A stretch of 64,000 nucleotides of DNA from the IMG/VR virus record IMGVR_UViG_3300007512_002515, positions 62,001 through 126,000 of that record, one strand, 5' to 3'. Origin of the DNA: a virus. The notes below the pieces were generated by a model. That model had not been told where the DNA came from, made no database searches, and was given only the letters and a program-made list of their open reading frames with translations. A program made the position numbers and the translations under genes. Below, piece by piece: positions 16,604 through 44,810 of this stretch. Every line of letters begins with the position of its first letter. The first letter of the stretch is position 1.

Positions 16604-18199
16604 ATGCCTCCTTTATCCAAACAGAAACAAGTCGCTGAAATTGTAAAGTGCGGTAAAGATCCTGCGTACTTTATAAATCGATACGTCCAAATTCAGCATC
16701 CGATACGCGGGCGTATTCCATTTCACACATTCCCATTTCAAGATGATTGTTTAGTCCACTTTAATGATCATCGCTTCAACATAGTCGTTAAGTCACGCCA
16801 GCTTGGGTTGTCAACCTTGACAGCTGCATATGCTGTGTGGATGACAATGTTTAGAAAAGATAAGACTGTCTTGATCATAGCTACTAAGCTGGCAGTTGCT
16901 CAAAACTTTATTAAAAAAGTAAAGATAGCGTTAAGTGGAATCCCTAAGTGGATGTGGATTACTGAAATAACCGCAAAGAATACACAAGCGATTGAGTTTT
17001 CGAATGGTTCAATGATTAAGGCTATTCCTACCTCTGAAGACGCCGGCCGCTCCGAAGCATTAAGCCTATTGATTGTTGATGAAGCTGCCTTTATTCGTAA
17101 TTTTGATGAACTATGGAAGGGCCTGTATCCTACACTGTCCACAGGTGGTAGAGCGATTGTTGTTAGCACGCCTAATGGAACGGGTGGTCAATATTATGAC
17201 TTATGGAAACAAGCTGCTGAAGGAACGAATGAATTTAATCCCATAAAATTGCCTTGGGATGTGCATCCAGAGCGAGACGATGAGTGGTTTAATAAAGAAT
17301 CGTTAAACATGAATAAGCAGCAGATCGCTCAAGAGCTGTTATGCGATTTTCAAGCATCAGGAAACACTTTTCTATCAATTGAGGAGATAGAGAAATTACG
17401 TTATAAAGTTCGCACGCCGCTCGAGAAGTGGGGTCCGGAAAATAATGTATGGGTATGGAAATATGCGCTAGAGGATCATGAGTATGTAGTCTCTGCCGAC
17501 GTTTCGAGAGGTGATGGAAAAGATTATTCTACTTTCCATGTCATTGATACAACAGTGTCAGAGGTGGTCGCTGAATTTCGTGGAAAGGTACCTCCAGATC
17601 AATTAGCATATTTGTTAATAGAGGCAGGTAGAAGGTATCATGAAGCCATGCTTTGTCCTGAAAGCAATACATTCGGATACGCTGTTTTAATGAAGCTACA
17701 AGAATTAGGGTATAGAAACATTTATTTTTCCAAAGAAAAGGATAAATTTAACGCATTATATGGCACGGGTCCAATTGGTAAGGCAGGGTTTTCGACTCAA
17801 GGCGGCAGTCGTGCTAAAATTCTCACTAAGTTAGAAGAGATGATTAGAAACGAAAAAGTTGATGTATATTCACAAAGACTGGTTGATGAGCTAAAGACGT
17901 TTGTGTGGACTAACGGAAAAGCTCAAGCTCAGCGTGGGAGAAATGACGATCTTGTAATGTCTTTTGCCATTGGTCTTTGGCTTTACGACGGAGACTCTCA
18001 TTCTTCAAAGAAGACAGTGGATATCAACAAAGCGATGTTGCAGGCATTTGCAATTAATAAAAAAGAAGAGCACCCAAAACGAAACATGTCCAATTTTGCT
18101 CAGCAGGTCGGGATGTTTACCGCTCGTGGTTGGCCTATAGCTGTGGATGAAGAGCATCCTGCAGTATCTGGCTCTGTGGATTTCAGTTGGTTGCTTTAG
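16604..18199 (+). CDS. Terminase large subunit (gp17-like)
   Basis: The 531-residue protein is the packaging motor ATPase and headful nuclease. The N-terminal ATPase has KSRQLGLST at 63-71 in the Walker A position, the Walker B LLIVDEAAFI with Asp159/Glu160, and coupling motif VVSTPNGTG near 186. The nuclease domain follows with Asp299 in VSADVSRGDGKDYS and a C-terminal acidic pair in GRNDDLVMSFAIG. The Walker A lacks the classical Lys before Ser/Thr (Leu69 instead); the Lys at 63 may serve, as in other deviant terminase P-loops. It acts with the portal encoded 19 bases downstream. The order TerL, portal, protease, scaffold, capsid is the T4 order. Confidence 0.93.
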   Translation: MPPLSKQKQVAEIVKCGKDPAYFINRYVQIQHPIRGRIPFHTFPFQDDCLVHFNDHRFNIVVKSRQLGLSTLTAAYAVWMTMFRKDKTVLIIATKLAVAQNFIKKVKIALSGIPKWMWITEITAKNTQAIEFSNGSMIKAIPTSEDAGRSEALSLLIVDEAAFIRNFDELWKGLYPTLSTGGRAIVVSTPNGTGGQYYDLWKQAAEGTNEFNPIKLPWDVHPERDDEWFNKESLNMNKQQIAQELLCDFQASGNTFLSIEEIEKLRYKVRTPLEKWGPENNVWVWKYALEDHEYVVSADVSRGDGKDYSTFHVIDTTVSEVVAEFRGKVPPDQLAYLLIEAGRRYHEAMLCPESNTFGYAVLMKLQELGYRNIYFSKEKDKFNALYGTGPIGKAGFSTQGGSRAKILTKLEEMIRNEKVDVYSQRLVDELKTFVWTNGKAQAQRGRNDDLVMSFAIGLWLYDGDSHSSKKTVDINKAMLQAFAINKKEEHPKRNMSNFAQQVGMFTARGWPIAVDEEHPAVSGSVDFSWLL

Positions 18200-18217: not shown

Positions 18218-20206
18218 ATGGCAAATAAGGGAAACATATTTCAGAGGCTAACAAGTCTTTTTAGGGCCGGCCCAGTTGTTAAGCGTAAGGTTCGGATGCA
18301 AACGCCCGGCGCTTCCTCCTCTGCTGCCCAGCTTTTTAAGCGGGCTCACAATGACGTCTATAATACGACATTAAGTGCGTATGGTTCCTTCGACCGGATG
18401 TCTCGGTACTCTGATTTTGCAGAGATGGAAGCTACACCAGAAATTGCTTCTGCTCTTGATATCTATTCTGAAGAAACGACTAGTCCTGATGAACACGGAC
18501 GCGCGCTCCATATTTTTTGTGAAAATGATATTCAAAAAGAGCTTTTAGAAACGCTTTTTTATGATACTCTAAATGTTGAGTTTAACCTTGTAATGTGGGT
18601 ACGAAATCTTTGCAAATATGGCGATTTTTTCCTGTTCAACGATATCGATCCTGAGTTTGGTGTTGTTAACGCTTTCCCAATTCCTATTTCGGAAATGGAG
18701 AGAGAAGAAGGTTTTGATCCAGAAAATCCCGGTGCAGTAAGATTCCGGTGGCTCACACAGGGAAACAGTGTATTAGAGAACTGGCAAATAACACACTTTC
18801 GCTTGCTGGGGAATGATGCATTTTTGCCTTATGGGTCCTCTGTTCTAGAATCGGCTAGAAGAATTTGGCGACAGCTTATCCTTATTGAGGATGCAATGCT
18901 AGTTTATCGAGTAATTCGTGCTCCTGAACGACGAGTATTTTATATTGATGTTGGTAACGTTCCACCGGAAGATGTTCCAAATTATTTAGAGCAAGCAACT
19001 AGCACATTAAAAAGAGCTCCAGTTATTGATAAAGACAATGGAAAAGTTGACTTGCGTTATAACCCTCTTTCGGTAGACGAAGACTACTTTATTCCTGTAC
19101 GTGGTGGGGACAGTGGTACAAAGATCGACACCCTCGCCGGGGGCCAGAATACAGCAGCAATCGAAGATGTTGAATATATTCAGAAAAAATTATTTGCTGC
19201 GTTAAAAATTCCTCGAGCATATCTTGGTTATGATGAAGACGTCGGAGCGAAAGCGACACTCGCACAAGAAGACATCCGGTTTAGCAGAACAATTCAGCGA
19301 ATTCAGAAAACAGTAATCGCCGAATTAAACAAAGTCGCTATGATCCACCTCTTTGTGCATGGATACGAGGGTGAAGACTTAATTGACTTTGAGCTTAAAC
19401 TTTCCAATCCATCTTCTGTGGCTCAATTGCAAAAACTTGAATTAATATCAACCCGTTTTGATATTGCTGGCAAGGTTCCCGAGGGAATGCTTGATAGACG
19501 GTGGGTTCAGAAAAATGTTCTTGGTCTAACAGACAAGGTTATCGATGAAATTAATGAAGGTAGAAAAGAAGATAAGGTCCTCGATGCAGATGTCGAAGCC
19601 GCCGCCGCAGGTGGCGAAGGCGGTGACATGGGTGGTGGCGACATGGGTGGAGGAGATATGGGCGGTGGTGAAGAAGCCGGTGGTCTGTTCGCAGCAGATG
19701 AGCCACACGGTCCACTCTTAACAGCCCTACCCGGTGATGGGAACAAGCAAGCCGAAGAAGAAGAAGAAGAAGATGATGATATTGATATAAGCGCTCTTTC
19801 GATTGATGATCCAGATGCTCCCTTGAAAGCCCAGTCATCAGTTAAGAGAGTTTTCGGGAAGCCAACTCCCGGAACTAAAGCAAAGAGAGGGCCACTAACG
19901 ACTCAAATGCCAGACTTTAAGAAGATGGTAACCCATTCCCGACCACAGGACTCTTTAAGAAAACCATACGGTGAAGATTATCTTCGACCTGCATTCGAGG
20001 GCATAGAATGGGATGAGCGAGATACTTACGATAGTATGTCAAGATCTACTAGACCAATGATGACACCAGAGATGAGGAGCGCAATGCAATCGCTCTCCTC
20101 GATTTTAACTCCTGAAGGTGGCGTGCTGTTGTCAGAAGCAGCCGAAAATGAGGAAGAAATATTCGACCTCGATGAATACGATACCGGAGACATAGATGAA
20201 AGTTAA
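18218..20206 (+). CDS. Portal vertex protein (gp20-like)
   Basis: The dodecameric portal forms the DNA entry ring of the head. The 662-residue protein (T4 gp20 has 524) contains the T4-portal block near residues 285-375: EDYFIPVRGGDSGTKIDTL, then QNTAAIEDVEYIQKKLFAAL and KIPRAYLGYD, with conserved basic/aromatic pattern after it. The extra length is a C-terminal tail of about 170 residues with a Gly/Asp/Met repeat (three GGDM units) and a run of Glu/Asp at about 509-518, then a basic stretch; the tail is probably flexible. The start after GGAAGG is well supported. Its end overlaps the next gene by 11 bases. Confidence 0.92.
   Translation: MANKGNIFQRLTSLFRAGPVVKRKVRMQTPGASSSAAQLFKRAHNDVYNTTLSAYGSFDRMSRYSDFAEMEATPEIASALDIYSEETTSPDEHGRALHIFCENDIQKELLETLFYDTLNVEFNLVMWVRNLCKYGDFFLFNDIDPEFGVVNAFPIPISEMEREEGFDPENPGAVRFRWLTQGNSVLENWQITHFRLLGNDAFLPYGSSVLESARRIWRQLILIEDAMLVYRVIRAPERRVFYIDVGNVPPEDVPNYLEQATSTLKRAPVIDKDNGKVDLRYNPLSVDEDYFIPVRGGDSGTKIDTLAGGQNTAAIEDVEYIQKKLFAALKIPRAYLGYDEDVGAKATLAQEDIRFSRTIQRIQKTVIAELNKVAMIHLFVHGYEGEDLIDFELKLSNPSSVAQLQKLELISTRFDIAGKVPEGMLDRRWVQKNVLGLTDKVIDEINEGRKEDKVLDADVEAAAAGGEGGDMGGGDMGGGDMGGGEEAGGLFAADEPHGPLLTALPGDGNKQAEEEEEEDDDIDISALSIDDPDAPLKAQSSVKRVFGKPTPGTKAKRGPLTTQMPDFKKMVTHSRPQDSLRKPYGEDYLRPAFEGIEWDERDTYDSMSRSTRPMMTPEMRSAMQSLSSILTPEGGVLLSEAAENEEEIFDLDEYDTGDIDES
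19619..19669 (+). repeat. Short tandem repeat encoding GGDMG units in the portal tail
   Basis: Three imperfect 15-base units encode GGDMG GGDMG GGDMG and a final GG, at the start of the low-complexity portal extension. The codons differ between units (ggtggtggcgacatg versus ggtggaggagatatg), so the protein pattern rather than the DNA is conserved. Confidence 0.85.
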
Positions 20207-25793: not shown

Positions 25794-27740
25794 ATGTCTA
25801 AGAAGTTCACACTTGGTCAATTGACCGAAGGTATCCGAGCGCGCCACATGGGCGATCACGGTCGGCGCCTTACAGAAAAGTGGACTCGGACTGGTCTCTT
25901 GCGGGGTCTCGAGAGCGTCCATCGTGAAAACATGGCACAGTTGCTCGAGAACCAGGCAGGTCAGATTTTACGAGAGCAGAATACTCTCGGTGGTGGTGGG
26001 CTAGCGCCTGCAGCTTCATCTGGTGACATCCGAGGTTTCACTAATATTGCATTCCCAATCGTTCGTCGAGTATTCGGCGGTCTGGTTGCGAATGAGCTGG
26101 TTTCAATCCAGCCTATGAGTTTGCCGTCCGGCCTACTCTTCTACCTTGACTACACTTATGGTTCTAACCAGGGTGGTGTTGCGGAAACTAGTTCCGGTGC
26201 AGATACCGGTCTTGGTACTAGCACTAAGAGTACATACGGCAAGGGTCAGTCCATATATAATAACCCCGCGGGTAAGGGCGTTCGCTCTGGTTCGCTGGGA
26301 ACGGGTGGACAGTATGACTTGGCTGGTTCTGGTTATTCAAAGGTTCATGCAAGGGTCGATGTTACTCTTGATGCAACCAACCAGTTCGTGCTTGGAAACA
26401 GTGCAACTCAAAGTCGTACAACGTCAGCTGGCTCCGCTGCATCTTCTGGTGCAGATGGTCGGTTTCTCCAGTTCGATCCCCAGGTAACTAGGGCAATCGA
26501 TTCAGAGAGCGGAACATTCCGTTTCGTTACCGTTGATCTTGGCACCCTCGGGTCCGAGTTCGATCCTCGTATGATTAAGGAAGCAGCCCTTGTTATATCT
26601 GGTACTGACTCCGCGCTTCAAAACCAGGCTGGTGATGGTCTGGCAGCTCCCTATACTGACCTTGCGGTTCCTGGCGAGACATGGCAGGGCGGCCGGAATG
26701 TGTATAACATCCGTCGTCTTAACCAGCTCGTTAAGTCCAGCTCAGATGGTGGCGCCATTTCTAGTGATCCACTGGCTGCTGCAAGTAAGGCTGGTTCTGC
26801 ACTTTTGATGGTACTTTCTGGTACGAACATCGGTACAGGCGACCTCGGTTGCTGGTCAGTTGTCTTTCCGAAGAGCAACTCTCTGAATGTTGGTAACGAT
26901 GGCGATACCCTTGTGGTTCCCGTCTTCGAGTCTAACTTCAGCCAGAGCGATGCGCAACCGGTTATTCCCGAAATCGACATCAAGATCGAGAGCATCTCGG
27001 TCGTGGCGTCCACTCGGAAGCTGCGTGCTCGTTGGTCCCCAGAGCTTGCTCAGGACTTGAATGCTTACCACAGCCTTGACGCTGAGGTTGAGCTTACTCA
27101 AATCCTCTCTGAGCAGATTGCTCTTGAGATCGATCGTGAGATCCTTAACGATCTCTTGATGGAAGCTGATACCAACTTCTACTGGAACCGTTCGCCTGGT
27201 GACTTTGTCAATAAGCGTAACGGTGCAGCTGTTTCTAGATCCGCATCCGCCGGGCCTTCCTTTACTGGTACGGTTCGCGAATGGTACGAGACCCTGGTCG
27301 AGACCATTATCGATGTTGCTAATGAGATTCATCGTAAGACTCTCCGAGGCTCTGCAAACTTCATGGTCGTTGGCCCTGATGTTGCTACCATCCTCGAGGC
27401 TTCGATCCTCTACCGCCCAGCCTACACCATTGATGGTGACGGTCAGGTGACTGGTGGAATGACTCTCGGCGCAGAGAAGGTCGGTACCCTGAGCAACCGT
27501 TTCACGGTCTATAAGGACCCCTACTTCCCACGCAACAAGATTCTTGTTGGGTATAAGGGCGGTAGCTACCTTGAGACTGGTTACGTATATGCTCCTTATG
27601 TACCCCTGATTGTTACTCCGACAATCTTCGCTCCTGAGGACTTCACTCCTCGTAAGGGTGTGATGACTCGGTATGGCAAGAAGATGGTACGTTCCGACTT
27701 CTACGGTACAGTCACGGTCATGAACATGGATATTATCTAA
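25794..27740 (+). CDS. Major capsid protein (gp23-like)
   Basis: The 648-residue protein forms the head shell. The T4 gp23 block FPIVRRVFGGLVANELVSIQ followed by PMSLPSGLLFYLDYTYGS lies at about 84-121, and the C-terminal part holds the expected gp23 pattern (VVGPDVATILEAS, then PYVPLIVTPTIFAPEDFTPR). The N-terminal 61 residues are helical and charged and contain LTE, LLE and LRE sites; ILRE-Q at 58-62 falls where T4 gp23 is cut, so the mature protein probably begins there. A strong AAAGGAGAAAA site precedes the ATG, codon choice is more C-ending than in the neighbours, and a strong terminator follows, all fitting very high expression. Confidence 0.93.
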   Translation: MSKKFTLGQLTEGIRARHMGDHGRRLTEKWTRTGLLRGLESVHRENMAQLLENQAGQILREQNTLGGGGLAPAASSGDIRGFTNIAFPIVRRVFGGLVANELVSIQPMSLPSGLLFYLDYTYGSNQGGVAETSSGADTGLGTSTKSTYGKGQSIYNNPAGKGVRSGSLGTGGQYDLAGSGYSKVHARVDVTLDATNQFVLGNSATQSRTTSAGSAASSGADGRFLQFDPQVTRAIDSESGTFRFVTVDLGTLGSEFDPRMIKEAALVISGTDSALQNQAGDGLAAPYTDLAVPGETWQGGRNVYNIRRLNQLVKSSSDGGAISSDPLAAASKAGSALLMVLSGTNIGTGDLGCWSVVFPKSNSLNVGNDGDTLVVPVFESNFSQSDAQPVIPEIDIKIESISVVASTRKLRARWSPELAQDLNAYHSLDAEVELTQILSEQIALEIDREILNDLLMEADTNFYWNRSPGDFVNKRNGAAVSRSASAGPSFTGTVREWYETLVETIIDVANEIHRKTLRGSANFMVVGPDVATILEASILYRPAYTIDGDGQVTGGMTLGAEKVGTLSNRFTVYKDPYFPRNKILVGYKGGSYLETGYVYAPYVPLIVTPTIFAPEDFTPRKGVMTRYGKKMVRSDFYGTVTVMNMDII

Positions 27741-31574: not shown

Positions 31575-34500
31575 ATGGCAGAACAGACATTTAGATCCCC
31601 CGGCTTCTTTGAGCGCGAAATAGATGCGTCAACAAGAAAGACCGAAATAACCGGAGTTCCAGCAGGAATTATAGGCACTGCTGAGAAGGGACCAGCATTT
31701 GTACCCGTAACTGTGGGTAGTTTTCAAGACTTTGTTAATCGATTTGGAACAATAGATCCTGATCGATTTGGACCATACGCGGTTCAAGCATTCTTAAAAA
31801 ATAGAACTGCTGCAACATACATGCGCGTTTTAGGTGCCGGAGCGAATGAAACAACATCACAGATAACGAATACACAAAATTATGGAACAGTTGTTAATGC
31901 TGGTCTTGTTTTGTCCGGTAACGTTTCTGCTTCGACTTCTAATGCAAACAATGGCGTTGTACAGTTCCTATGTGCTCGACATGATGCTGCAGCCTCCGAA
32001 GCAGTTGCGATGCCAGAGTTCACTGACAATCCGAGCTTTAATAACGCCGATGCTATGAAAATAGTTCGGGGTGTTATTTTTAATGCCACAACAGCACGTA
32101 CACAAGTTATAGACCTGGATGAAACGTGGACGAGCACCGTCGACGATGAGTGCCAAATTGATAGTGGTGGTCTATTTGCTGTCGTTATTTCATCTTCGCT
32201 TGGGACAACTTTTGCGAACCAAGAAGATAATAATGGTACTGTGGTACCGGGTGTCAAGATTGTTTCTGCATCTTTAGATCCAGCTTCTCCAGCGTACATC
32301 TCGAATGTATTGAACACCGACCCCACGAAATTCGTTCAAGAACAGCATCTCCTATATCTTGATTTTGCCGTTGAAGATGAAATCGCACCAGTTGCGACCT
32401 CTGCAGCCGGCGTGGCCCTTCTGTCTGGGTCTGCGAACTTTGGAAAAACTTTACAGTCTGGTGCAGGGAATGAATTCACAATGCTCTTTGGGCGTTATGA
32501 CACTCGCTACACAACACCCACAAGTCCCCAGATTATTTCGCAACCATTCGGAGGGACAGAGTATCCTCTTTTCCGGTTCGAAAGTCTATCTGATGGTGCT
32601 TACGGAAATGATAAAGTAAAGATTTCTATAGCAAACCTTCGCGCTAGTACAAACAAGAATTATAGGTACGGAACATTCGAGGTCCAGGTTCGACGATTCG
32701 ACGATACCGACTTAGCCCCCCAGATTCTTGAGAGCTATCCAGAGTGCAATCTAGACCCAAATTCTGAAAGCTTTATTGGTAGAAAAGTTGGCGACTATAA
32801 GACGTGGTATAACTTTGATGCTGAAAATGATGACGAACGTCGAATCATCGTCAGTGGAAAATATCCCAATCAGTCGGTATACATTCGCACGGTTATAAAT
32901 GAAGCGGTATATAGAAGTGAGGTTCCTACTGACTCTTTACCTTTCGGCTTTTCTGGTATTCCAGCCCTCAAGACGTCTGATTCTTTAACTGATAATTCTC
33001 TATCACGCCTTGAGTTTGGTGGCGTTCCCTATGGAAACACTGGAAACACACGGTTGTGGGGTGACTGTAGTGCTGATGGCCTCGTAATGACTGGATCGAT
33101 TATTCCTCCCCTTCCAATGCGCTTTAAGGTGACCAGAGGTGCTGTATCCACCACCGCATTCATGTCAGGCTGGCCCGGAGATGATGAAAGAGTGGATGGT
33201 CGCTTTTACTGGGGCGTAAAATTTGAAAGATGTCCAAAGGAAGATGACGTTACTAACGCAATCTTGAACCAGAATATTTCCTCCGCGCCGAATTCAACCG
33301 TAGCTGCATATACTAAGTTCCAGGGAATTTCTAAACTTGATGCTCTAGTATCGGGAAGCGCAGTAGATGCTTTCAACGCTAACAAGTTCACCCTTGCAAA
33401 GGTCGCCTTGGCTGGGACAGGAAGTGATACAACCGCCGCGACTCTGCTCTCAGAGGTTACGGCTTCCGCAAAAGAGCACATGCTAGAAGCAGCATACATC
33501 AGGAATGGTGTTCCAGATTCTCAGACATATGTTGTAGAAGATCCAGACGGATATGGTAAGCGTATCACCTTCGCAACACTAGCACAGTCTTCGTCCATTA
33601 AGTTTAATAGATTTACAGCATATCTGAAGTTCACAACACCAATGTACGGTGGCTGGGATGGCTTAAACATCTTGGACAAGGACATGTCTTTAATGAACGA
33701 TAGAGCAACGTCAACAGACGCCTCTGGAGAGACAGGAAAGGCATCATCGGAATTCTCTGCAACAACAATTGGGCTTGCAAGTAATCCAGCTGGAGACGGT
33801 AGACTCAATAACAATATTTTCGCTTATCGGGAAGCTGCCAGAATTATGACCGATCCTATGACGGTTCGAAATAATATTCTTTCCATCCCTGGAATAAGAG
33901 ATTCTTATGTCACGGATTGGGCTGCTGATAGGACGAAGGCATACTCCATGGCTATTTACCTTATGGACATCCCATCGTGGTCTGAGAATGCTGGTCGCCT
34001 ATTTGGTGATGAGAACAGAACTCTTATCAAGAGCTCTTCGGATTCATTCCCAGATGTTCGTGAAACGGCGGAGCAATTTGAGTCTCGAGCAATCGATAAC
34101 AACTATTGTGCGACATACTTCCCTGATGTGTATATTACTGACTCAAACAATCAGCAAGCTGTATTGGTCCCATCGTCAGTTGCCGCCTTGGCAGCGCTTG
34201 GGTATAATGACGCAGTCGCTTATCCTTGGTTCGCTCCCGCAGGGTTTAATCGAGGAAGTCTTGGGATGGTAACCAATACTGACGCAAGATTGACTGCTAG
34301 CGATCGAGATGATTTATACGATGTACGAATCAATCCAATAGCAAACTTCCCGAATGGTGGGTTTGTAATATTTGGACAAAAGACAATGCAGCTGTCTCAG
34401 TCTGCATTGGATCGTGTTAATGTACGTCGTATGATGCTTGAATTGAAGCGCCAGGTGGTTGCGGTCGCAAACAAGATTTTGTTTGAGCCAAATAATGCTG

Positions 34501-34724
34501 CGACGAGAGGACGCTTTATAAATCTAGTGACTCCATTACTAGCCGCGATTCAAGCGCAGCAGGGTATTGAGTCATTCAAAGTTGTCATGGATGACACAAA
34601 CAATAGCGCGCAAGATGTTGAAAGCAACAAGTTGAATGGTAGGATCGTTGTCGTACCCACAAGGGCGATTGAGTTTATTGCGATAGATTTTATCATTACA
34701 AACAGTGGCGTAGACTTTGCGTGA
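31575..34724 (+). CDS. Tail sheath protein, first paralogue (gp18-like)
   Basis: At 1049 residues it is much longer than T4 gp18 (659), but both ends are plainly sheath: N-terminal FRSPGFFEREIDAST and TEKGPAF-type loop (IGTAEKGPAFVPVTV), and C-terminal DRVNVRRMMLELKRQVV with KILFEPNN and IEFIAIDFIITNSG. The sheath surrounds the tube and contracts at infection. The middle (about 100-700) is an inserted multi-domain region likely exposed on the outside. A second full-length sheath gene follows after 33 bases. The ribosome site AGGAG precedes the ATG; a weak motif AATAGTTATT lies 32 bases upstream. Confidence 0.9.
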   Translation: MAEQTFRSPGFFEREIDASTRKTEITGVPAGIIGTAEKGPAFVPVTVGSFQDFVNRFGTIDPDRFGPYAVQAFLKNRTAATYMRVLGAGANETTSQITNTQNYGTVVNAGLVLSGNVSASTSNANNGVVQFLCARHDAAASEAVAMPEFTDNPSFNNADAMKIVRGVIFNATTARTQVIDLDETWTSTVDDECQIDSGGLFAVVISSSLGTTFANQEDNNGTVVPGVKIVSASLDPASPAYISNVLNTDPTKFVQEQHLLYLDFAVEDEIAPVATSAAGVALLSGSANFGKTLQSGAGNEFTMLFGRYDTRYTTPTSPQIISQPFGGTEYPLFRFESLSDGAYGNDKVKISIANLRASTNKNYRYGTFEVQVRRFDDTDLAPQILESYPECNLDPNSESFIGRKVGDYKTWYNFDAENDDERRIIVSGKYPNQSVYIRTVINEAVYRSEVPTDSLPFGFSGIPALKTSDSLTDNSLSRLEFGGVPYGNTGNTRLWGDCSADGLVMTGSIIPPLPMRFKVTRGAVSTTAFMSGWPGDDERVDGRFYWGVKFERCPKEDDVTNAILNQNISSAPNSTVAAYTKFQGISKLDALVSGSAVDAFNANKFTLAKVALAGTGSDTTAATLLSEVTASAKEHMLEAAYIRNGVPDSQTYVVEDPDGYGKRITFATLAQSSSIKFNRFTAYLKFTTPMYGGWDGLNILDKDMSLMNDRATSTDASGETGKASSEFSATTIGLASNPAGDGRLNNNIFAYREAARIMTDPMTVRNNILSIPGIRDSYVTDWAADRTKAYSMAIYLMDIPSWSENAGRLFGDENRTLIKSSSDSFPDVRETAEQFESRAIDNNYCATYFPDVYITDSNNQQAVLVPSSVAALAALGYNDAVAYPWFAPAGFNRGSLGMVTNTDARLTASDRDDLYDVRINPIANFPNGGFVIFGQKTMQLSQSALDRVNVRRMMLELKRQVVAVANKILFEPNNAATRGRFINLVTPLLAAIQAQQGIESFKVVMDDTNNSAQDVESNKLNGRIVVVPTRAIEFIAIDFIITNSGVDFA

Positions 34725-34757: not shown

Positions 34758-37700
34758 ATGGCTGAACTGACATTTAAGAGCCCCGGGGTTTCTACAAGAG
34801 AAATCGATCTATCGGGCCCAACTAAGGCTGCTCCGACCGGAATACCTGCAGGTGTGATTGGAACAGCCAATCAGGGCCGAGCATTTGTGCCAATAACAAT
34901 GGCTACGTTTGCAGACTTTGTGGCTGAATTCGGTAATACTGATGGTGAAAAGTTTGGACCTATGGCGATGCGTCAATGGTTGAATTACGCCAGAGCCGGT
35001 ACTTACCTTAGAATTCTAGGAGTAGGAGACGGGAAGAAGAGAAATTCGAACGGAACTGTCACTAATGCTGGTTTCGTAGTAGGCGCTGAGCAGTGGCGCG
35101 CCACTGGCATAGTTGGAGACAATGCGTACGCTGGTTCCACAACTACAAACGGTGGCGTTCTTGGACGAACTTGGTTCCTCGGCTGCATCATGGAAGAGTC
35201 GGGAAGTTCAACTGCATTCTCGTCAGCAGGACTGCAGTCTGTTCAACCCATCCTTCGCGGTGTCGTTATGGCTCCTTCCGGCGTTGTACCGGCATTGAGC
35301 GCTTCAAGAAGTGCTATTTCCAACAACACTCCATTAGGTGCCCCTGGTGCAAATGATTACGCAGCTGCAGGAACGTTCGGCGCGGGCGCTACACAAGATG
35401 CCGGTTCCACGGTAGGATCAGTCAATCTCGCTGGTGGCCGTCAGGAATTTGTATTATTACTAAATGGTCATAGCCACACCGATGAGTATCCAACCATTAT
35501 CACTGCTTCGTTTGATCCCAAGGCGCCCAATTATCTTTATAACGTTTTAAATACTGATTCTACTAAGATCCAAAACGCTGGACACTATCTCTATGCGCAT
35601 TGGGGGATCGATCCCGCCATAGCATATGTTACTGGTTCATCGCTGGTGGATGATGACTACGCCGCAATAACTGAGGGTGGAACCGTTAAGACTGAGGATG
35701 TTGCATTCTTACTCACATCATCCATTAGCAGAAACAATAATGGTGACGCCAGTGTACCAAACTTTGAAGGGTTCGTTGACAGATTTCGTACAGCTTACTC
35801 TCCATACATTATCTCCCAGGCATACGGGGGAGTGAATTACAACTTATTTAGGATTCACGCTCTTGACGATGGCGCGATTGGAAATACCAGGGTTAAGATC
35901 TCGGTCGAAAATATTACAAAGTCGACGAATACAAACAATCCGTATTCAGCGTTTGATTTACTGGTTAGAGACTTTAATGATACAGATTCTGAGCCGATTG
36001 TGATAGAAAAGTTCTCTAAGCTTTCATTAGACCCGGGTTCAGAAAGATATATCGCAAGACAAGTTGGAAATTACCACCTCTATTATGATTTTGATAAGCG
36101 CGTAGGTTCTCAAAAGCTTGTACTTGATGGTGCATATCCCAACAAGTCTAACTACATTAGAGTAGAGACAAATAAGCTTCTGGATAACGCACAGCTTCCT
36201 GCGGATGTTTTACCCGTTGGTTTCCGTGGTCCAGCGCACCTCATTACATCAGGGTCCTCGATTTTCTCTGTTGCTGATAGCGCAGTAACGGACGTGATGG
36301 CCGGTGAAGTTGCATCTCAGCTCGTACAGCTACCCATTCCATATCGCTTAATGGTTTCTAAGAATAAGACTCCGAAAAAGTCGCTCGCCCCTGAGCTATA
36401 TTGGGGTGTCCAGTTCTCGATTCAAGATAGCGTGGATGAGCCAAACCGGAACATTCAAACGAACAACTCGATTGCATCCTATAGCACGTACTTTAACACA
36501 TATTCGCAGAACGGTCAAGCAGCAGTCGTTGGTAATAACCAGGGTGTTGCTGATGCAAGCGGAACGATTTTAGATTGTGATAAGTTCAATAACAACAAGT
36601 TCTCTCTTGAGAATATCCAAGTTGTTGTAACCACCGACACCACCCCTCGAGCAGATTCATCGCAATGGGCAGCAGCACAGTATATGCGGTCCGGTATCGC
36701 ATCGGCGAGTATTCCTGATATTGATGGAACCGCTAGAACATCTGGTGATTCGGGTGGGTCTAGACTACTTAGTGTAGCAACAGACTTTGGTTTGACGTCG
36801 ACAAGAAGGTTCCTGAAGTTCACCACTATCGTGCAGAATGGGTTTGACGGGTCTAATATCTTTAACAAGGAAAAGCTAGCATTCTCAAACATTGCTGTAA
36901 CGAAAGAAATGGCTGATGTCACCGCACAAGGCGGAGTAACTGGTCAGGTTACCGCTGCTTATCGAAAAGCAATGGATGTCTTAAAGGAACGCTCAGATGT
37001 GGATATTCAGTTGTTGGCTATTCCAGGTCAGAGAAATTCCGCCGTCACTGATTATTGTATGCAAGCTGTTGAAGAACGGTTTGATGCCATGTATATTATG
37101 GACCTCGAGGGGAAAGACACCTACAACGAGGTAATATCTGGTTCATCTCAGTTGGCGAGTGTTACAAACACTGCGAATTCTTTTGCAGGGCGAAATTTGG
37201 ATAACTCTTTCGCTGCTGCGTACTTCCCTGATGTGATTATGACTGATGTGGGTACTTCTACTAACGTACAGGTTCCACCCAGCGTTGCGGTCCTCGGCGC
37301 GTTTGCACTAAACGATTCAGTCGCTTATCCCTGGTTTGCACCAGCAGGATTCACTCGAGGTGCATTGAAGAATGTTCTTGAAACACAAGTGAAGTTGAGC
37401 CGCTCAAACCTTGATGCTCTTTATGATGTAGACATTAACCCAATAACAGCATTCCCACAAACGAAGGGTGAGGTTGTGGTATTTGGCCAAAAGACTCTCC
37501 TCGCAGCACAGTCTGCGCTCGATAGAGTCAATGTAAGACGGCTTCTAATCGATGTTAGGCGCCAGGTTCGAGCGATTGGTGATACATTCCTCTTCGAGCC
37601 CAATAGGGAGTCAACGTTGGCGAGGTTCTCGGCTGCTGTTAATCCAGTTCTGGCCAGAATTCAAGCACAGCAAGGTCTAGACCGATTCAAGGTACAGATC

Positions 37701-37832
37701 GACACTACCACAACGACGCAAGCCGATGTGGAAAATAACATTGTCAGAGGTAAGATTTTCCTCCAGCCGACAAGGTCCGTAGAGTTTATATCTCTTGATT
37801 TTGTCGTAACCAACGCTGGAACCGAAATTTAA
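34758..37832 (+). CDS. Tail sheath protein, second paralogue (gp18-like)
   Basis: This 1024-residue protein is a homologue of its upstream neighbour along the whole conserved frame: FKSPGVSTREIDLSG and IGTANQGRAFVPITM at the N-terminus; DRVNVRRLLIDVRRQVR, FLFEPNRE and VEFISLDFVVTNAG at the C-terminus. The central parts share pieces (ISQAYGGVNYNLFRIHALDD versus ISQPFGGTEYPLFRFESLSD) but diverge in length and loops. Both frames are intact and both have AGGAG ribosome sites, so neither looks like a pseudogene. The two could build a mixed sheath or specialised rings; which one polymerises along the tube cannot be told from sequence. Confidence 0.9.
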   Translation: MAELTFKSPGVSTREIDLSGPTKAAPTGIPAGVIGTANQGRAFVPITMATFADFVAEFGNTDGEKFGPMAMRQWLNYARAGTYLRILGVGDGKKRNSNGTVTNAGFVVGAEQWRATGIVGDNAYAGSTTTNGGVLGRTWFLGCIMEESGSSTAFSSAGLQSVQPILRGVVMAPSGVVPALSASRSAISNNTPLGAPGANDYAAAGTFGAGATQDAGSTVGSVNLAGGRQEFVLLLNGHSHTDEYPTIITASFDPKAPNYLYNVLNTDSTKIQNAGHYLYAHWGIDPAIAYVTGSSLVDDDYAAITEGGTVKTEDVAFLLTSSISRNNNGDASVPNFEGFVDRFRTAYSPYIISQAYGGVNYNLFRIHALDDGAIGNTRVKISVENITKSTNTNNPYSAFDLLVRDFNDTDSEPIVIEKFSKLSLDPGSERYIARQVGNYHLYYDFDKRVGSQKLVLDGAYPNKSNYIRVETNKLLDNAQLPADVLPVGFRGPAHLITSGSSIFSVADSAVTDVMAGEVASQLVQLPIPYRLMVSKNKTPKKSLAPELYWGVQFSIQDSVDEPNRNIQTNNSIASYSTYFNTYSQNGQAAVVGNNQGVADASGTILDCDKFNNNKFSLENIQVVVTTDTTPRADSSQWAAAQYMRSGIASASIPDIDGTARTSGDSGGSRLLSVATDFGLTSTRRFLKFTTIVQNGFDGSNIFNKEKLAFSNIAVTKEMADVTAQGGVTGQVTAAYRKAMDVLKERSDVDIQLLAIPGQRNSAVTDYCMQAVEERFDAMYIMDLEGKDTYNEVISGSSQLASVTNTANSFAGRNLDNSFAAAYFPDVIMTDVGTSTNVQVPPSVAVLGAFALNDSVAYPWFAPAGFTRGALKNVLETQVKLSRSNLDALYDVDINPITAFPQTKGEVVVFGQKTLLAAQSALDRVNVRRLLIDVRRQVRAIGDTFLFEPNRESTLARFSAAVNPVLARIQAQQGLDRFKVQIDTTTTTQADVENNIVRGKIFLQPTRSVEFISLDFVVTNAGTEI

Positions 37833-39936: not shown

Positions 39937-42900
39937 GTGGCAGCAGACTCGAAAGAACTACAATCGCAATTAGCTATCCAGCAGTCGATCAACAAGGTTT
40001 TACAAGATCGACAGAAGGTGCTGGAAAAGCAGCAAAAGTATTTATCTAGCCAGGTAGATACCGCGGTACAGCTGTGCAAGGCTCTAGAGTGTAAGGGCCT
40101 GGATGATGTCCAACAAAAAATGAAGGAAGTCCGAGATGGCTTAGCTGGTGCTGCCTCCGAGGCCGATAAAGCCAGCGGCAAAATTGGTGAAATGACCACC
40201 AGTCTTCAAGACACAGAACAAGCGAATAAAAAAGTAATCAAGTCGTTCGCCGAGCTGATATCCCATATTAAAGAATCACACGTTGCTTTAGCTGGCTTTG
40301 CCGCGGGTGCTGCTAAAGGGTTTAAGAGCGCCATCGCTGATATAAAGCAGATGGGTGCAACGATCGGTACGGTTATCGGTGGTATTAAAAACATCGGGCT
40401 GTCTATTGTTGCAATTCCATTCCAGATGTTTAGCGGACTAGTCGGCATGGCTAATGACCTGGCTGGAAGTGTATCTGCTTTAAGACAAGGAATCGAAGAC
40501 GTTCGAGGAAGCTTTGGCGATCTAGCTAGTAACGAGGGCGCTGCTCTAATGAGCGGCTTAAGCAATCTTCAATCACAGTCTAGTAGCTTAGGTGGGACAG
40601 GTGTGAGTCTGGCGGCCGTCTACGGCGTTGGCCCTGATGGTGTAGCTGCAGCCCTAGCAGATCTCGCCGCTACAGCGGAGGCTCTCGGCCCTAAATTTGG
40701 AATGCTTTCTGATGAGTTCGCAAATTCAGCTGGCGAGATTCTTGCATTCAAGAAGGGGATGGGGCTATCAGAAGAAGCCATGAGCGGTTTCGCAACGATG
40801 GCTATCTCTTCCGGCTCGAGTTTGACAGATACCCTTCAAGATGTAGGCAACTATTCTATTCAAATGGGCGATAAGTTTGGGGTCTCTTCCAAGCTCATAT
40901 CGAAAGATATGGGTGAGATGGCAGCTGACTTCAAGAACTTCGGAACCATGTCGACCAAGGAAATGGCCGCGGCGTCTGTATACGCTAGAAAGCTCGGTAT
41001 CGATGTTAAGGGTCTCCAAGGTGTTATCGGTAAGTTTGACGATTTCGAGGGAGCAGCTGACTCCGTATCCCAATTAAACCAAGCGTTTGGTATCCAGCTT
41101 GACACCATGGAGATGATGAACGCAGAGAATCCCGCCGAACGAATCGACATGATGAAGAATGCCTTCCATGAGGCAGGCAAATCTATCGAAGATATGACAC
41201 GTCAAGAACGTGCACTGTTGGCAGAGCAAACCGGCCTTAGCGAAGAGGCTCTTGCCACTGCATTCTCACAAGAGAATATGGGAACTTCTTACGAAGATAT
41301 TGCTGCGGGCGCAGATGAAGCTGAAGAGAAGCAGTTATCACAAACAGAGGTGATGAACAAGCTTGCTGACACGATGGATCGAGTATTTAACTCAGGCCGA
41401 GATTTTAACGGCTTCTTCGATGCATTAACCCAAGGATTTACGAAAGGTTTAACACAATTCCCAGAATTTAAGGAACTTTTAACTGCAATCCGCGAAGCAC
41501 TACAGACGGTGTTTGAAGCTGGTAAAGAAATGGGTAAGCTTTTTGGTGAGCTTCTAGGCTCTGGTGGATTTGATATTCTCGGTCCCCTTAAAGACATGTT
41601 CAACAGCGACGCCCTGAAGACATTATTCGGTGGAATAGGTGTCGATGAAACTGGCAAGAAAACAGGAACAGGACTTATTGGCGCATTTAGTATGCTTATG
41701 AGTTTCCTGAAGGGTGATGAGGGAGTGAAGCTGTCAGACGTCTTTGATTCGGTTTCAGAATCTTTTTCAAATTTCTTCGGAGCAAACTCTGAGGCAGCAA
41801 CTAAGTTGAAGGAAGGTATTTCAAGAATGATCACCGGGGTTGGTGAGATGATTGCTCAAATGATACCCTGGGTTGTAACAAAGGTTGTAGACTTTTTTAA
41901 GGGAATTGCTGAAGCCATCAGAAACCCACCAGACCTCGAAGGCGCAGCGTCTGAAGGGATAGGTGGTGCAATCATGGGAGCCATCTCTAGTATAGGTGGT
42001 GCCCTTATGGACGCCGTTCCAGAGTTGCTTGGTGCCTTCCTTGATATTATATCAGCTGTTTTTGAAAAACACGGTGGAAAGATCATCGCCGTTGGTGGCG
42101 CGTTGCTTGCATTTGTCCTTGGAAAGATGATTATCTTTGGAGCCATCAGCGCGGTTCAAGCAGCTGTAGGGGCAGTTGTTGTCAAAAAGTTAACAGACTT
42201 TATGCTCGGAGCAGTTGGGGATTCTGCTGATGCAGCTGAAGCATCGATGCCAGACGCTGGGCAGATGAAAGAAATGGCTCAGGGTGTTGGCGAAGGCCTC
42301 GGCGCGTTGATCGATTCCGTTGCGAAAATTGATGCAAAAAATATCGTAATGGCTGGCGTCAAGTTGGCCCTGATGGCGGCTTCGCTGCTTCCTGCAATTG
42401 CGATCTTTGCTGCTGGTATAGTCATGGCCGCCATGATTATGTCTGTAGCGCCCTGGGAAGGAATCGCGAAATTATTCGTGGTTATGCTGGTCGTCATTCC
42501 GCTTCTAATGCTAGTAATGCTCGCCGCGAAGTTCTTAGACCCTGGGACGTTATTATCATCAGCGGTTAACATGGCTTTAGCTGCTGTAGCACTTGGCCTT
42601 GGGATGATCCCATTCGCAGCGGCTCTAATGATCGTATATGCTTTAATTGGAAACATCCCGTTTTTGGAGATTGTGAAGATTTTTGCAGTGATGGGTCTTG
42701 CAATTCTTGCTGTGTTTATTATCTCTAAGATTGGTCTTTCTTTGGCTCCACCCATCACAGCGCCTGGCTTACTCTTTATGGCTTTAGCTGCAGGTCTGAT
42801 GATTATCGGAATGGTGGCATTTGCATTGGCCTTAAAATTGGTGCATATGATTCTTAAGCCAATCCCGTTTATGGAAATTGTGCAGATGTTCGGAATGCTA

Positions 42901-44628
42901 GGTATGGCGATCCTTGCTACTGCCGCGCTAGCGCTGGTTGGTGCCGCGTTTGCGATGGCTGCTCCGCTCTTTATTCCTATGATGGGTGGGTTATTACTCG
43001 CTGCGCTAATGTTGACTGTTGGAGTTGCCGTCTTTGCAGGGGCTCTGGCGCTATTATTGGGCGCTCTCCCCAACATCGACCCGGCGGCAGTAGACACAAT
43101 GTTTATTACAATTGGTAAAGCAATTCTTGCATTAGCTGTTTTGGTTGCTGTCGGTGCTGCCTTCGCACTAATAACAGCATTTGCCCCCATGATAATCACG
43201 GGAATGTTAGCAGCAGCTGGATTCCTAACTGTTGGTGTATTGGCTTTCGCAGCCGCTTTAGCGATCGCATCGACAGTCGCTGGGGATGTCATGAAAGGAG
43301 CTGCAATCATGCCAATGATCGAGATGATGCTTAAGGTTTCATTGGCGATGGCTATTCTCGTTCCACTTGCTGCTCTTTTTGGAATGATGATTCCTATCCT
43401 GCCCTTCTTACTTTGGGGTCTTGGTGGATTGTCAGTGTTTATGGTTGGTGCCGCGGTAGCAGTCGGTGCAATGGTCGCTGCAGCTGCAACAATACCAATC
43501 GCTGACCCTGAAGATATGGCCGCAAGGATGGAAGTTATCGGTGGTGTGGCCACAGCGCTTCAGGCCCTTGGTGGTCTTGCTCTTGATGCTGGGAAATTGG
43601 GTGTTGCAGCCGAATCGCTTGGTAAAGGCGGTATGGACAAGGTCTTTAATTTAATGGGGAGCTTCCTTGATAAGATTAAGGACACTCTAGTTGGCACTGT
43701 AACCACGTTGGTGGGACTTGCTGTTGGATATAGCAAGAGTGATCTTGAGAAAGCAGCAGTCGTCGGAGACGTCGTCGCCGCCGTCGCTCAGTTCGCAGCC
43801 GCGATCGCCGAGCCGTTAGCACTCGTATCCTCAATGACAGGGTTCTTCAACCCCAGCGCCGCGTCAAATATGAGCACTGTAATTGGTGGGCTTGGCGACA
43901 TGATGGACATGCTAGCTGAAAAGCTACCAACAATAATCAATGCGCTCATTACAGCTGGCGCAGGAATTCCATCGGGATTCAAGGAAAAAGCAGAATCAAT
44001 GCAGATTATGTTCCAGGCGCTTGGTCCCATGATGGACGCGCTAGGGAAAATTCAGGTAATTGCTGAAGAATCTGTAAAGGGAATAGACGGACCATCAGTA
44101 CAAACGTTATTCGACGGAATGGCCGGCGGTTTATCTGCCCTGGCCACGACGATGCCGCAGGTTATCTCAAGTTTGAGTGCCATCCCTGGAGCTGAAGAGG
44201 TTCAATCACAAGTTGATAAGTTAGATCAGTTGTTTAATGTGACAGTCGCTCTTTCTGACGTGCTTGGTAAATTTACGGAGCTCGGGGAAGCAAATTCTCC
44301 ATCGATGACAGAGCGCGCCGGCGCGTTTCTTAAGAATCTGGTTGGTGGATCTGATGGACCAACCCCCGCTGCACAAGCAATTCTCTCGATGGTCGAGGAG
44401 ATGAACTCTATCAACACCGCGCTAGACGGATTACCAGAGATTAATCTCAACGCAAACCTCCAGAAAGTTGCCGATGCATTCAGCGTTTCCGAATCCATCA
44501 ACGTAGAGAACAAGCCCGTTAATATAACAATTAACCTTAGCGTTACAATGGACGCGAATAAGGTAGGTAGTGTTCTGGTTGATAAATCAGTTATGACAAC
44601 ACCGCTAGCCACAGCAGAGGGTCAATAA
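39937..44628 (+). CDS. Tape measure protein with repeated hydrophobic hairpins
   Basis: Translation starts at GTG 39937 after AAGGGTGG. The 1563-residue product is by far the longest after the tube genes. Residues 1-60 form a Gln/Lys coiled coil, followed by Ala/Gly-rich helical sequence to about 700 typical of tape measures, a strongly hydrophobic block from about 710 to 1190 and a soluble C-terminal part. By the usual 1.5 angstrom per residue this would set a tail of roughly 230 nm, an estimate only. The hydrophobic block holds about 12-14 membrane-length segments, five of them pairs in tandem repeats, and could form a membrane channel for DNA entry. T4 gp29 is far shorter (590). Confidence 0.8.
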   Translation: MAADSKELQSQLAIQQSINKVLQDRQKVLEKQQKYLSSQVDTAVQLCKALECKGLDDVQQKMKEVRDGLAGAASEADKASGKIGEMTTSLQDTEQANKKVIKSFAELISHIKESHVALAGFAAGAAKGFKSAIADIKQMGATIGTVIGGIKNIGLSIVAIPFQMFSGLVGMANDLAGSVSALRQGIEDVRGSFGDLASNEGAALMSGLSNLQSQSSSLGGTGVSLAAVYGVGPDGVAAALADLAATAEALGPKFGMLSDEFANSAGEILAFKKGMGLSEEAMSGFATMAISSGSSLTDTLQDVGNYSIQMGDKFGVSSKLISKDMGEMAADFKNFGTMSTKEMAAASVYARKLGIDVKGLQGVIGKFDDFEGAADSVSQLNQAFGIQLDTMEMMNAENPAERIDMMKNAFHEAGKSIEDMTRQERALLAEQTGLSEEALATAFSQENMGTSYEDIAAGADEAEEKQLSQTEVMNKLADTMDRVFNSGRDFNGFFDALTQGFTKGLTQFPEFKELLTAIREALQTVFEAGKEMGKLFGELLGSGGFDILGPLKDMFNSDALKTLFGGIGVDETGKKTGTGLIGAFSMLMSFLKGDEGVKLSDVFDSVSESFSNFFGANSEAATKLKEGISRMITGVGEMIAQMIPWVVTKVVDFFKGIAEAIRNPPDLEGAASEGIGGAIMGAISSIGGALMDAVPELLGAFLDIISAVFEKHGGKIIAVGGALLAFVLGKMIIFGAISAVQAAVGAVVVKKLTDFMLGAVGDSADAAEASMPDAGQMKEMAQGVGEGLGALIDSVAKIDAKNIVMAGVKLALMAASLLPAIAIFAAGIVMAAMIMSVAPWEGIAKLFVVMLVVIPLLMLVMLAAKFLDPGTLLSSAVNMALAAVALGLGMIPFAAALMIVYALIGNIPFLEIVKIFAVMGLAILAVFIISKIGLSLAPPITAPGLLFMALAAGLMIIGMVAFALALKLVHMILKPIPFMEIVQMFGMLGMAILATAALALVGAAFAMAAPLFIPMMGGLLLAALMLTVGVAVFAGALALLLGALPNIDPAAVDTMFITIGKAILALAVLVAVGAAFALITAFAPMIITGMLAAAGFLTVGVLAFAAALAIASTVAGDVMKGAAIMPMIEMMLKVSLAMAILVPLAALFGMMIPILPFLLWGLGGLSVFMVGAAVAVGAMVAAAATIPIADPEDMAARMEVIGGVATALQALGGLALDAGKLGVAAESLGKGGMDKVFNLMGSFLDKIKDTLVGTVTTLVGLAVGYSKSDLEKAAVVGDVVAAVAQFAAAIAEPLALVSSMTGFFNPSAASNMSTVIGGLGDMMDMLAEKLPTIINALITAGAGIPSGFKEKAESMQIMFQALGPMMDALGKIQVIAEESVKGIDGPSVQTLFDGMAGGLSALATTMPQVISSLSAIPGAEEVQSQVDKLDQLFNVTVALSDVLGKFTELGEANSPSMTERAGAFLKNLVGGSDGPTPAAQAILSMVEEMNSINTALDGLPEINLNANLQKVADAFSVSESINVENKPVNITINLSVTMDANKVGSVLVDKSVMTTPLATAEGQ
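42448..43497 (+). repeat. Five tandem hydrophobic repeats in the tape measure
   Basis: Five units of about 63-78 codons begin at 42448, 42655, 42862, 43075 and 43309. Their openings align: APWEGIAKLF, IPFLEIVKIF, IPFMEIVQMF, IDPAAVDTMF and MPMIEMMLKV; each is followed by a hydrophobic helix, a short Pro/Gly turn and a second helix ending in a small polar spacer. Units one and two are both 69 residues. Similarity is at protein level; the DNA has diverged. Confidence 0.75.
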
Positions 44629-44810
44629 TGAGCAATGAAAAGATTGGTTTGACAGAGGAAGAAGCTAAATACTTAGAGGAGTGTGCAAAGGTATCGGAGG
44701 AAAAGTGGGAAGTTGTCAAGGGACTTTTGGAGTTTTTTGAAAAAACGCTCGCTGAAAATCCAGAAAGTGTTGGCGCCGCAATAGAGGAGTTGTTAAAGAG
44801 AAATGGCTGA
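44628..44810 (+). CDS. Small acidic helical protein between tape measure and hub
   Basis: The 60-residue protein begins in the TAATG overlap with the tape measure stop and ends inside the start of the hub gene, so it is tightly coupled to both. It is acidic and helical (LTEEEAKYLEECAKVSEEKW, then LLEFFEKTL). The size, charge and position suit a tail assembly chaperone, for example one that keeps the hydrophobic tape measure soluble. That role is inferred; the family is not known to me. Confidence 0.6.
   Translation: MSNEKIGLTEEEAKYLEECAKVSEEKWEVVKGLLEFFEKTLAENPESVGAAIEELLKRNG

Follow-up and report, generated by a model that had tools for sequence, protein, structure and literature searches.

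The 64,000 nucleotides analysed here (the window) are part of a 178,344-base virus record. Searches against PHROGs and Pfam identified a large terminase at 16604, a portal at 18218 and a major head protein at 25794, as well as two tail sheath genes (31575-34724 and 34758-37832), a gp19-like tube gene (37874) and a T4-like baseplate hub gene (38521). Judged from these tail genes, the phage has a contractile, T4-like tail. The two adjoining sheath genes are paralogs with about 33-34% mutual identity, and both are also present in L091, L099, and L010. By their sheath, the nearest cultured phages are the Microcystis phage Mel-JY01 and the Flavobacterium immuto phages (36-37% identity over 39-48% of the protein).

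The gene at 39937-44628 (+ strand, GTG start) encodes a tape measure protein of 1,563 residues. It matches the tape measure family PHROG 167 over residues 6-798 (E 1.3e-5) and Pfam TMP_3 with an E value of 4e-5 that falls under the curated cut-off, and it lies between the tube and hub genes and the baseplate genes, as it does in its relatives. A tblastn search with this protein returned no match among cultured phages, in a search whose low-complexity filter may mask hydrophobic matches. Two regions are kept in the family: an N-terminal core (residues 1-640; 39937-41856, +), part of which aligns with syntenic tape measures of just 626-692 residues, and a C-terminal tail (residues 1501-1563; 44437-44625, +) that is identical in the sister contig L002.

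Between these regions, the tape measure carries four homologous hydrophobic hairpins of 69-71 residues each (residues 836-1115), preceded by a homologous half unit. The first-pass annotation had drawn, by eye, five tandem hairpins of about 70 residues at 42448-43497, corresponding to residues 838-1187, and its boundaries fall near those found with sequence profiles. Measured from linker to linker, the array on the + strand comprises the half unit, which consists of the second helix only (residues 789-835; 42301-42441), unit 1 (residues 836-904; 42442-42648), unit 2 (residues 905-973; 42649-42855), unit 3 (residues 974-1044; 42856-43068), and unit 4 (residues 1045-1115; 43069-43281). Units 1 and 2, whose start motifs could be located, are exactly 69 residues long, as had been noticed in that annotation, and units 3 and 4 are 71 residues long. 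The segment that follows (residues 1116-1186; 43282-43494, +) is hydrophobic, helical in a low-confidence model, and of the right length for a fifth hairpin. It nevertheless scores about -4 to -12 bits with the unit profiles, so its homology to the other units is undetectable in sequence, and its status as a fifth unit is uncertain.

The repeat was established by self-comparison and by profiles from other phages. The composition-corrected self-similarity of residues 780-1200 peaks at a lag of 69 (z 6.1), followed by lags of 71 and 142. None of 300 shuffles reached the main peak, and its z is 4.2 against shuffles that hold the hydrophobic, small or polar class of each position; six divergent relatives show a like lag, from 67 to 74. 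A profile built from four units of a single 34%-identical relative (L008) matches three window units, at residues 908-975, 977-1039, and 1054-1111 (E 2e-6 to 2e-8). A second profile drew on 81 units from phages other than the window and its sister L002. It detects the half unit at 18 bits (789-835) and units 1 to 4 at 14 bits (839-902), 31 bits (907-973), 32 bits (976-1039), and 26 bits (1050-1112), where the residues in brackets are the extent of each match. By comparison, local shuffles score at most 3.2 bits with the unit profile, and a family profile that includes the window units had no match at E<=1 among 9,232 control ORFs of the collected loci. Identity is 46% between units 3 and 4 and 39% between units 2 and 3. 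Across the family, unit pairs within one protein (n=94) are 34% identical in register and 12% identical when the register is rotated.

These results bear on whether the segments share composition alone and are not homologous repeats. The failure of the fifth unit in the profile test speaks for this, and class-preserving shuffles still reach part of the score, which means that the pattern of hydrophobic and polar positions carries much of the signal. However, the detection of the half unit and units 1-4 by a profile free of window sequence, the lack of matches in control ORFs, and the lag of 67-75 in many relatives make this explanation highly improbable, and for units 1-4 it is refuted. An origin of the units by tandem duplication, as originally suggested, is well supported by the sequence comparisons because the homology is in register, whole units are inserted or deleted between relatives, and unit numbers differ. 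The array does not look like a repeat of the type described by Belcaid, which is marked by an aromatic residue every 11 or 18 residues: its period is 69-71, and no shorter lag is among its top peaks in a scan from lag 20 upwards.

An open frame of 424 codons lies antisense to the array (42279-43553, - strand). We did not take it as a gene because the + strand is under purifying selection (dN/dS 0.06-0.13 where measurable), and it is probably a mirror of codon usage.

The consensus of the hairpin unit is VPFKKVAKGLIALALAILATVALIKAGAAALKPGTIIKAILGLLAAALLFTVGMVAFALALGVVAKIL, with well-conserved Val/Ile at position 1, Ala at 19, Gly at 42, Ala at 47, Gly at 53, and Phe/Tyr at 57. An AlphaFold2 model of units 2 and 3, for which 44 unit pairs served as input, has a mean pLDDT of 77 and contains four helices (5-32, 38-68, 74-102, and 105-139), that is, two of 28-35 residues per unit, in agreement with the regular two-helix hairpin proposed at first. 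The model of the whole array reached a pLDDT of 59 and served for secondary structure alone. A hydropathy scan found 14 segments across the tape measure, 11 of them in a single cluster, which lies within the 12-14 possible membrane helices anticipated by the first-pass annotation. Both the scan and the predicted helices thus give hydrophobic segments of membrane length, and the hydrophobicity of both helices is retained over 80 units. By our own count, Lys and Arg lie mostly in the linkers between units (about 105, vs 33 in the hairpin loop); this bias is suggestive of all linkers being on the cytoplasmic side. We could not detect relatives of the unit in PHROGs, and a sequence search of the PDB gave only a chance match to a rhodopsin (E 0.18). 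Fold searches in the PDB and in BFVD, a database of predicted viral structures, returned no match, nor did tblastn against cultured phages, where the low-complexity filter may hide hydrophobic matches.

Directly 3' of the hairpins is a second array of soluble tandem units of about 70-80 residues, which the first-pass annotation had overlooked. Three units are present in the window (residues 1190-1259, 1267-1336, and 1345-1412; 43504-44172, +), scoring 32, 45, and 27 bits with an iterated profile, and 3-9 in most hairpin-bearing relatives. Their consensus is DPKALKAKIEAIGKAMGAVGKFAKALGKIAELVPESGGFFSSGKSMSERLKAMGDFMSKIMDAIKGLIPKLVKSV. Common descent of the two unit types, hydrophobic and soluble, is not supported: a profile-profile comparison aligned them in register, but the match was not significant (P 0.17).

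We compared the array across 80 relatives, which yielded 46 distinct closed tape measure frames, including the window protein (L001), a 371-residue fragment (L003), and two isolate proteins. The number of hydrophobic helices in the main cluster ranges from 0 to 16 among these frames. In about two dozen tape measures, all from uncultured phages, a lag of 67-75 ranks first or among the top lags, with the strongest periodicity in L060 (lag 72, z 11.7) and L042 (lag 71, z 10.4). Most of these relatives have 2-5 recognised units, half units counted, starting near residue 700-840, although the profile undercounts: L044, L053, L063, and L070 have 6-8 clustered helices and zero or one recognised unit. 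Within this detection limit, a tree of the N-terminal core requires a minimum of six events in which the recognised array appeared or disappeared, and of 16 changes in unit number.

Some relatives have no array at all. L049 and L067, which the tree groups with L042, L046, and L060 with strong support, retain the N-terminal core and the C-terminal tail, but their middle is soluble, unrelated, of similar length, and free of hairpins. More distant syntenic phages have the tape measures of 626-692 residues mentioned above, which are without any hydrophobic helix, and the tail genes next to these encode at most one or two hydrophobic segments. Because these syntenic relatives do without it, the array lies outside the essential core of the tape measure; it is an optional module. 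For 68 of the 82 units, the closest unit lies in another phage and often occupies the corresponding place there, a sign that the duplications are old. Units 2 and 4 of the window are closest to other window units, and this is weak evidence of later duplication there.

Along most of a 13-kb stretch of tail genes, the DNA of the sister contig L002 is 97-100% identical to that of the window. This identity drops to 53-83% in a tract at about 42150-44370 (+) that spans both arrays and stops before the conserved C-terminal tail; this recombination-like tract, too, had escaped the first-pass annotation. Over nearly the whole tract, synonymous sites are saturated or close to it. In units 3-5 (counting segment 1116-1186 as the fifth), amino-acid identity is down to 35-51% and non-synonymous change peaks; unit 1 and parts of the soluble array show little such change. 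The high non-synonymous change in units 3-5 is explained equally well by relaxed constraint and by selection for change. A smaller, mostly silent tract lies inside the tape measure core, at about 40360-40920 (+; 75-81% DNA identity). Its amino acids are 90-95% identical while synonymous sites are near saturation, and it looks like a separate recombination event.

Point mutation would not be expected to leave divergence as local as this, but recombination with another lineage would, and in this one pair of metagenomic contigs the two arrays together have the look of a cassette that can be exchanged. Within units 3-5, the window resembles L002 no more closely than it resembles L090, though the core of L090 is just 72% identical. 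We identified no donor of the L002 array, as L090 is no closer to it than to that of the window, and when we used the neighbouring gene at 44803 to look for further relatives at strain level, just the two contigs already known came up. A chimeric assembly could possibly produce such a tract, but the window version is also found, 100% identical, in a separate record (L001/L088), and the faster divergence of the tape measure middle is general in the family.

Little is understood of how tailed phages pass their DNA through the inner membrane, and it is disputed whether the hydrophobic stretches of tape measures are a conduit or a chaperone site. Predicted membrane helices are described in the tape measures of diffocin, TP901-1, phiCD119, P2, and Pam3, with three to seven of them in several tape measures; the diffocin tape measure is described as a trimer, a trimer pore is proposed, and such helices are suggested to make a conduit through the inner membrane (PMC10996793). 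The initial interpretation is supported in part, for the duplication and the hairpins; its functional half, a putative channel set free in the inner membrane as the DNA is delivered, is in line with these published ideas.

On balance, we lean towards an array that arose by duplication, is replaced as a block and serves as an accessory module for passage through the inner membrane. The C-terminal half of the tape measure would be an accessory module joined to the conserved core of about 640 residues, with duplicated two-helix hydrophobic hairpins as its first part and the soluble repeat array as its second. Seated in the tail lumen, the tape measure would exit before the DNA when the sheath contracts; the hairpins would then insert into the host inner membrane, and several tape measure copies may jointly line or brace the DNA route. 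Because each unit is a complete helix pair, with like linkers, adding or removing units would leave the orientation of the following segments unchanged. Recombination would swap the module as a block, perhaps fitting it to different host membranes or inner-membrane partners. The data themselves show the tandem homology, the predicted hairpins, the differing unit numbers, the lack of the array in some relatives and its replacement as a tract; ejection, insertion, a conduit and a fit to hosts are inferred. The up to 16 clustered helices of some relatives count for a role in the membrane, and the predicted helix length, which exceeds a plain membrane span, counts against it. Since the syntenic relatives manage without the array, DNA entry in general does not require it.

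Other functions were weighed against the same evidence. The units may be spacers of a ruler that lengthen the tape, in which case duplication would tune tail length and hydrophobicity would be incidental or would aid packing in the lumen. Repeat units that set tail length are already known (PMC3271669, PMC5099701), and unit number and protein length co-vary in part. Still, a ruler does not need the membrane-like hydrophobicity that is kept over divergent units, the adjoining soluble array varies in number too, and L049 and L067 reach a similar total length with a soluble middle, so that length is attainable without hairpins; we therefore find this explanation doubtful. We consider it unlikely that the hairpins serve assembly alone, as a binding site for tail chaperones until the tube has enclosed the tape, and do nothing at the host membrane. 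This has been put forward for the hydrophobic regions of TP901-1, the first of which is essential, although a membrane or a chaperone role could not be assigned to it (PMC5099701). Chaperone sites would be expected in every member, yet relatives with the same tail gene order are without the array.

The array may also bind a host inner-membrane protein, form no conduit alone, and be exchanged to switch partner. The replacement of the tract, with amino-acid change strongest in units 3-5, would fit such docking, and in lambdoid phages the host range region determines the inner-membrane protein required for DNA entry (PMC6832061). According to the citation of Cumby et al. (2015) in PMC10240207, the tape measure of HK97 itself contributes to this requirement. 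We rate docking as quite unlikely: relaxed constraint on membrane helices also predicts high amino-acid change, and sequence does not separate docking from an inner-membrane passage module. It is conceivable, and we propose it only tentatively, that the hairpin array is an inner-membrane specificity cassette, swapped and resized by recombination to match the host membrane or an entry partner. If so, it would determine host range at a second level, in addition to the receptor-binding proteins. The family is in any case a natural experiment, in which one N-terminal core is joined to duplicated membrane hairpins whose number runs from none to many, and a near-identical pair, the window and L002, differs mainly in the array module. 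Should cultured members be found, their unit number and array type could be compared with tail length, host envelope, and DNA entry.

Tape measures are already known to contain tandem repeats (PMC3271669), and also membrane helices; in the part of the literature that we covered, none is reported to carry membrane hairpins duplicated in tandem. The tape measures of TP901-1, P2, phiCD119, Pam3, and diffocin (CD1366) likewise have membrane-like helices thought to act at the inner membrane (PMC10996793, PMC5099701), but their descriptions give three to seven helices and no tandem array, whereas the 11 clustered helices of the window, and more in some relatives, are built of homologous hairpins. 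The 11- and 18-residue repeats of other tape measures are also tandem units that are gained and lost (PMC3271669, PMC5099701), but they bear aromatic markers, in contrast to the longer hydrophobic hairpins of the window. The T6SS effector Tde1 and Burkholderia tape measures share a glycine-zipper, small-residue-rich membrane segment linked to translocation; in Tde1 this is a GxxxG stretch at residues 12-51 (PMC10240207). Among cultured phages, the tape measure of Flavobacterium phage immuto (MW353176; L085:14921-17938) is the closest one to show similarity (51.6 bits). Its repeat units are not recognised by the hairpin profile, and it has a hydrophobic tandem repeat of its own, with a period of 52 (z 7.0).
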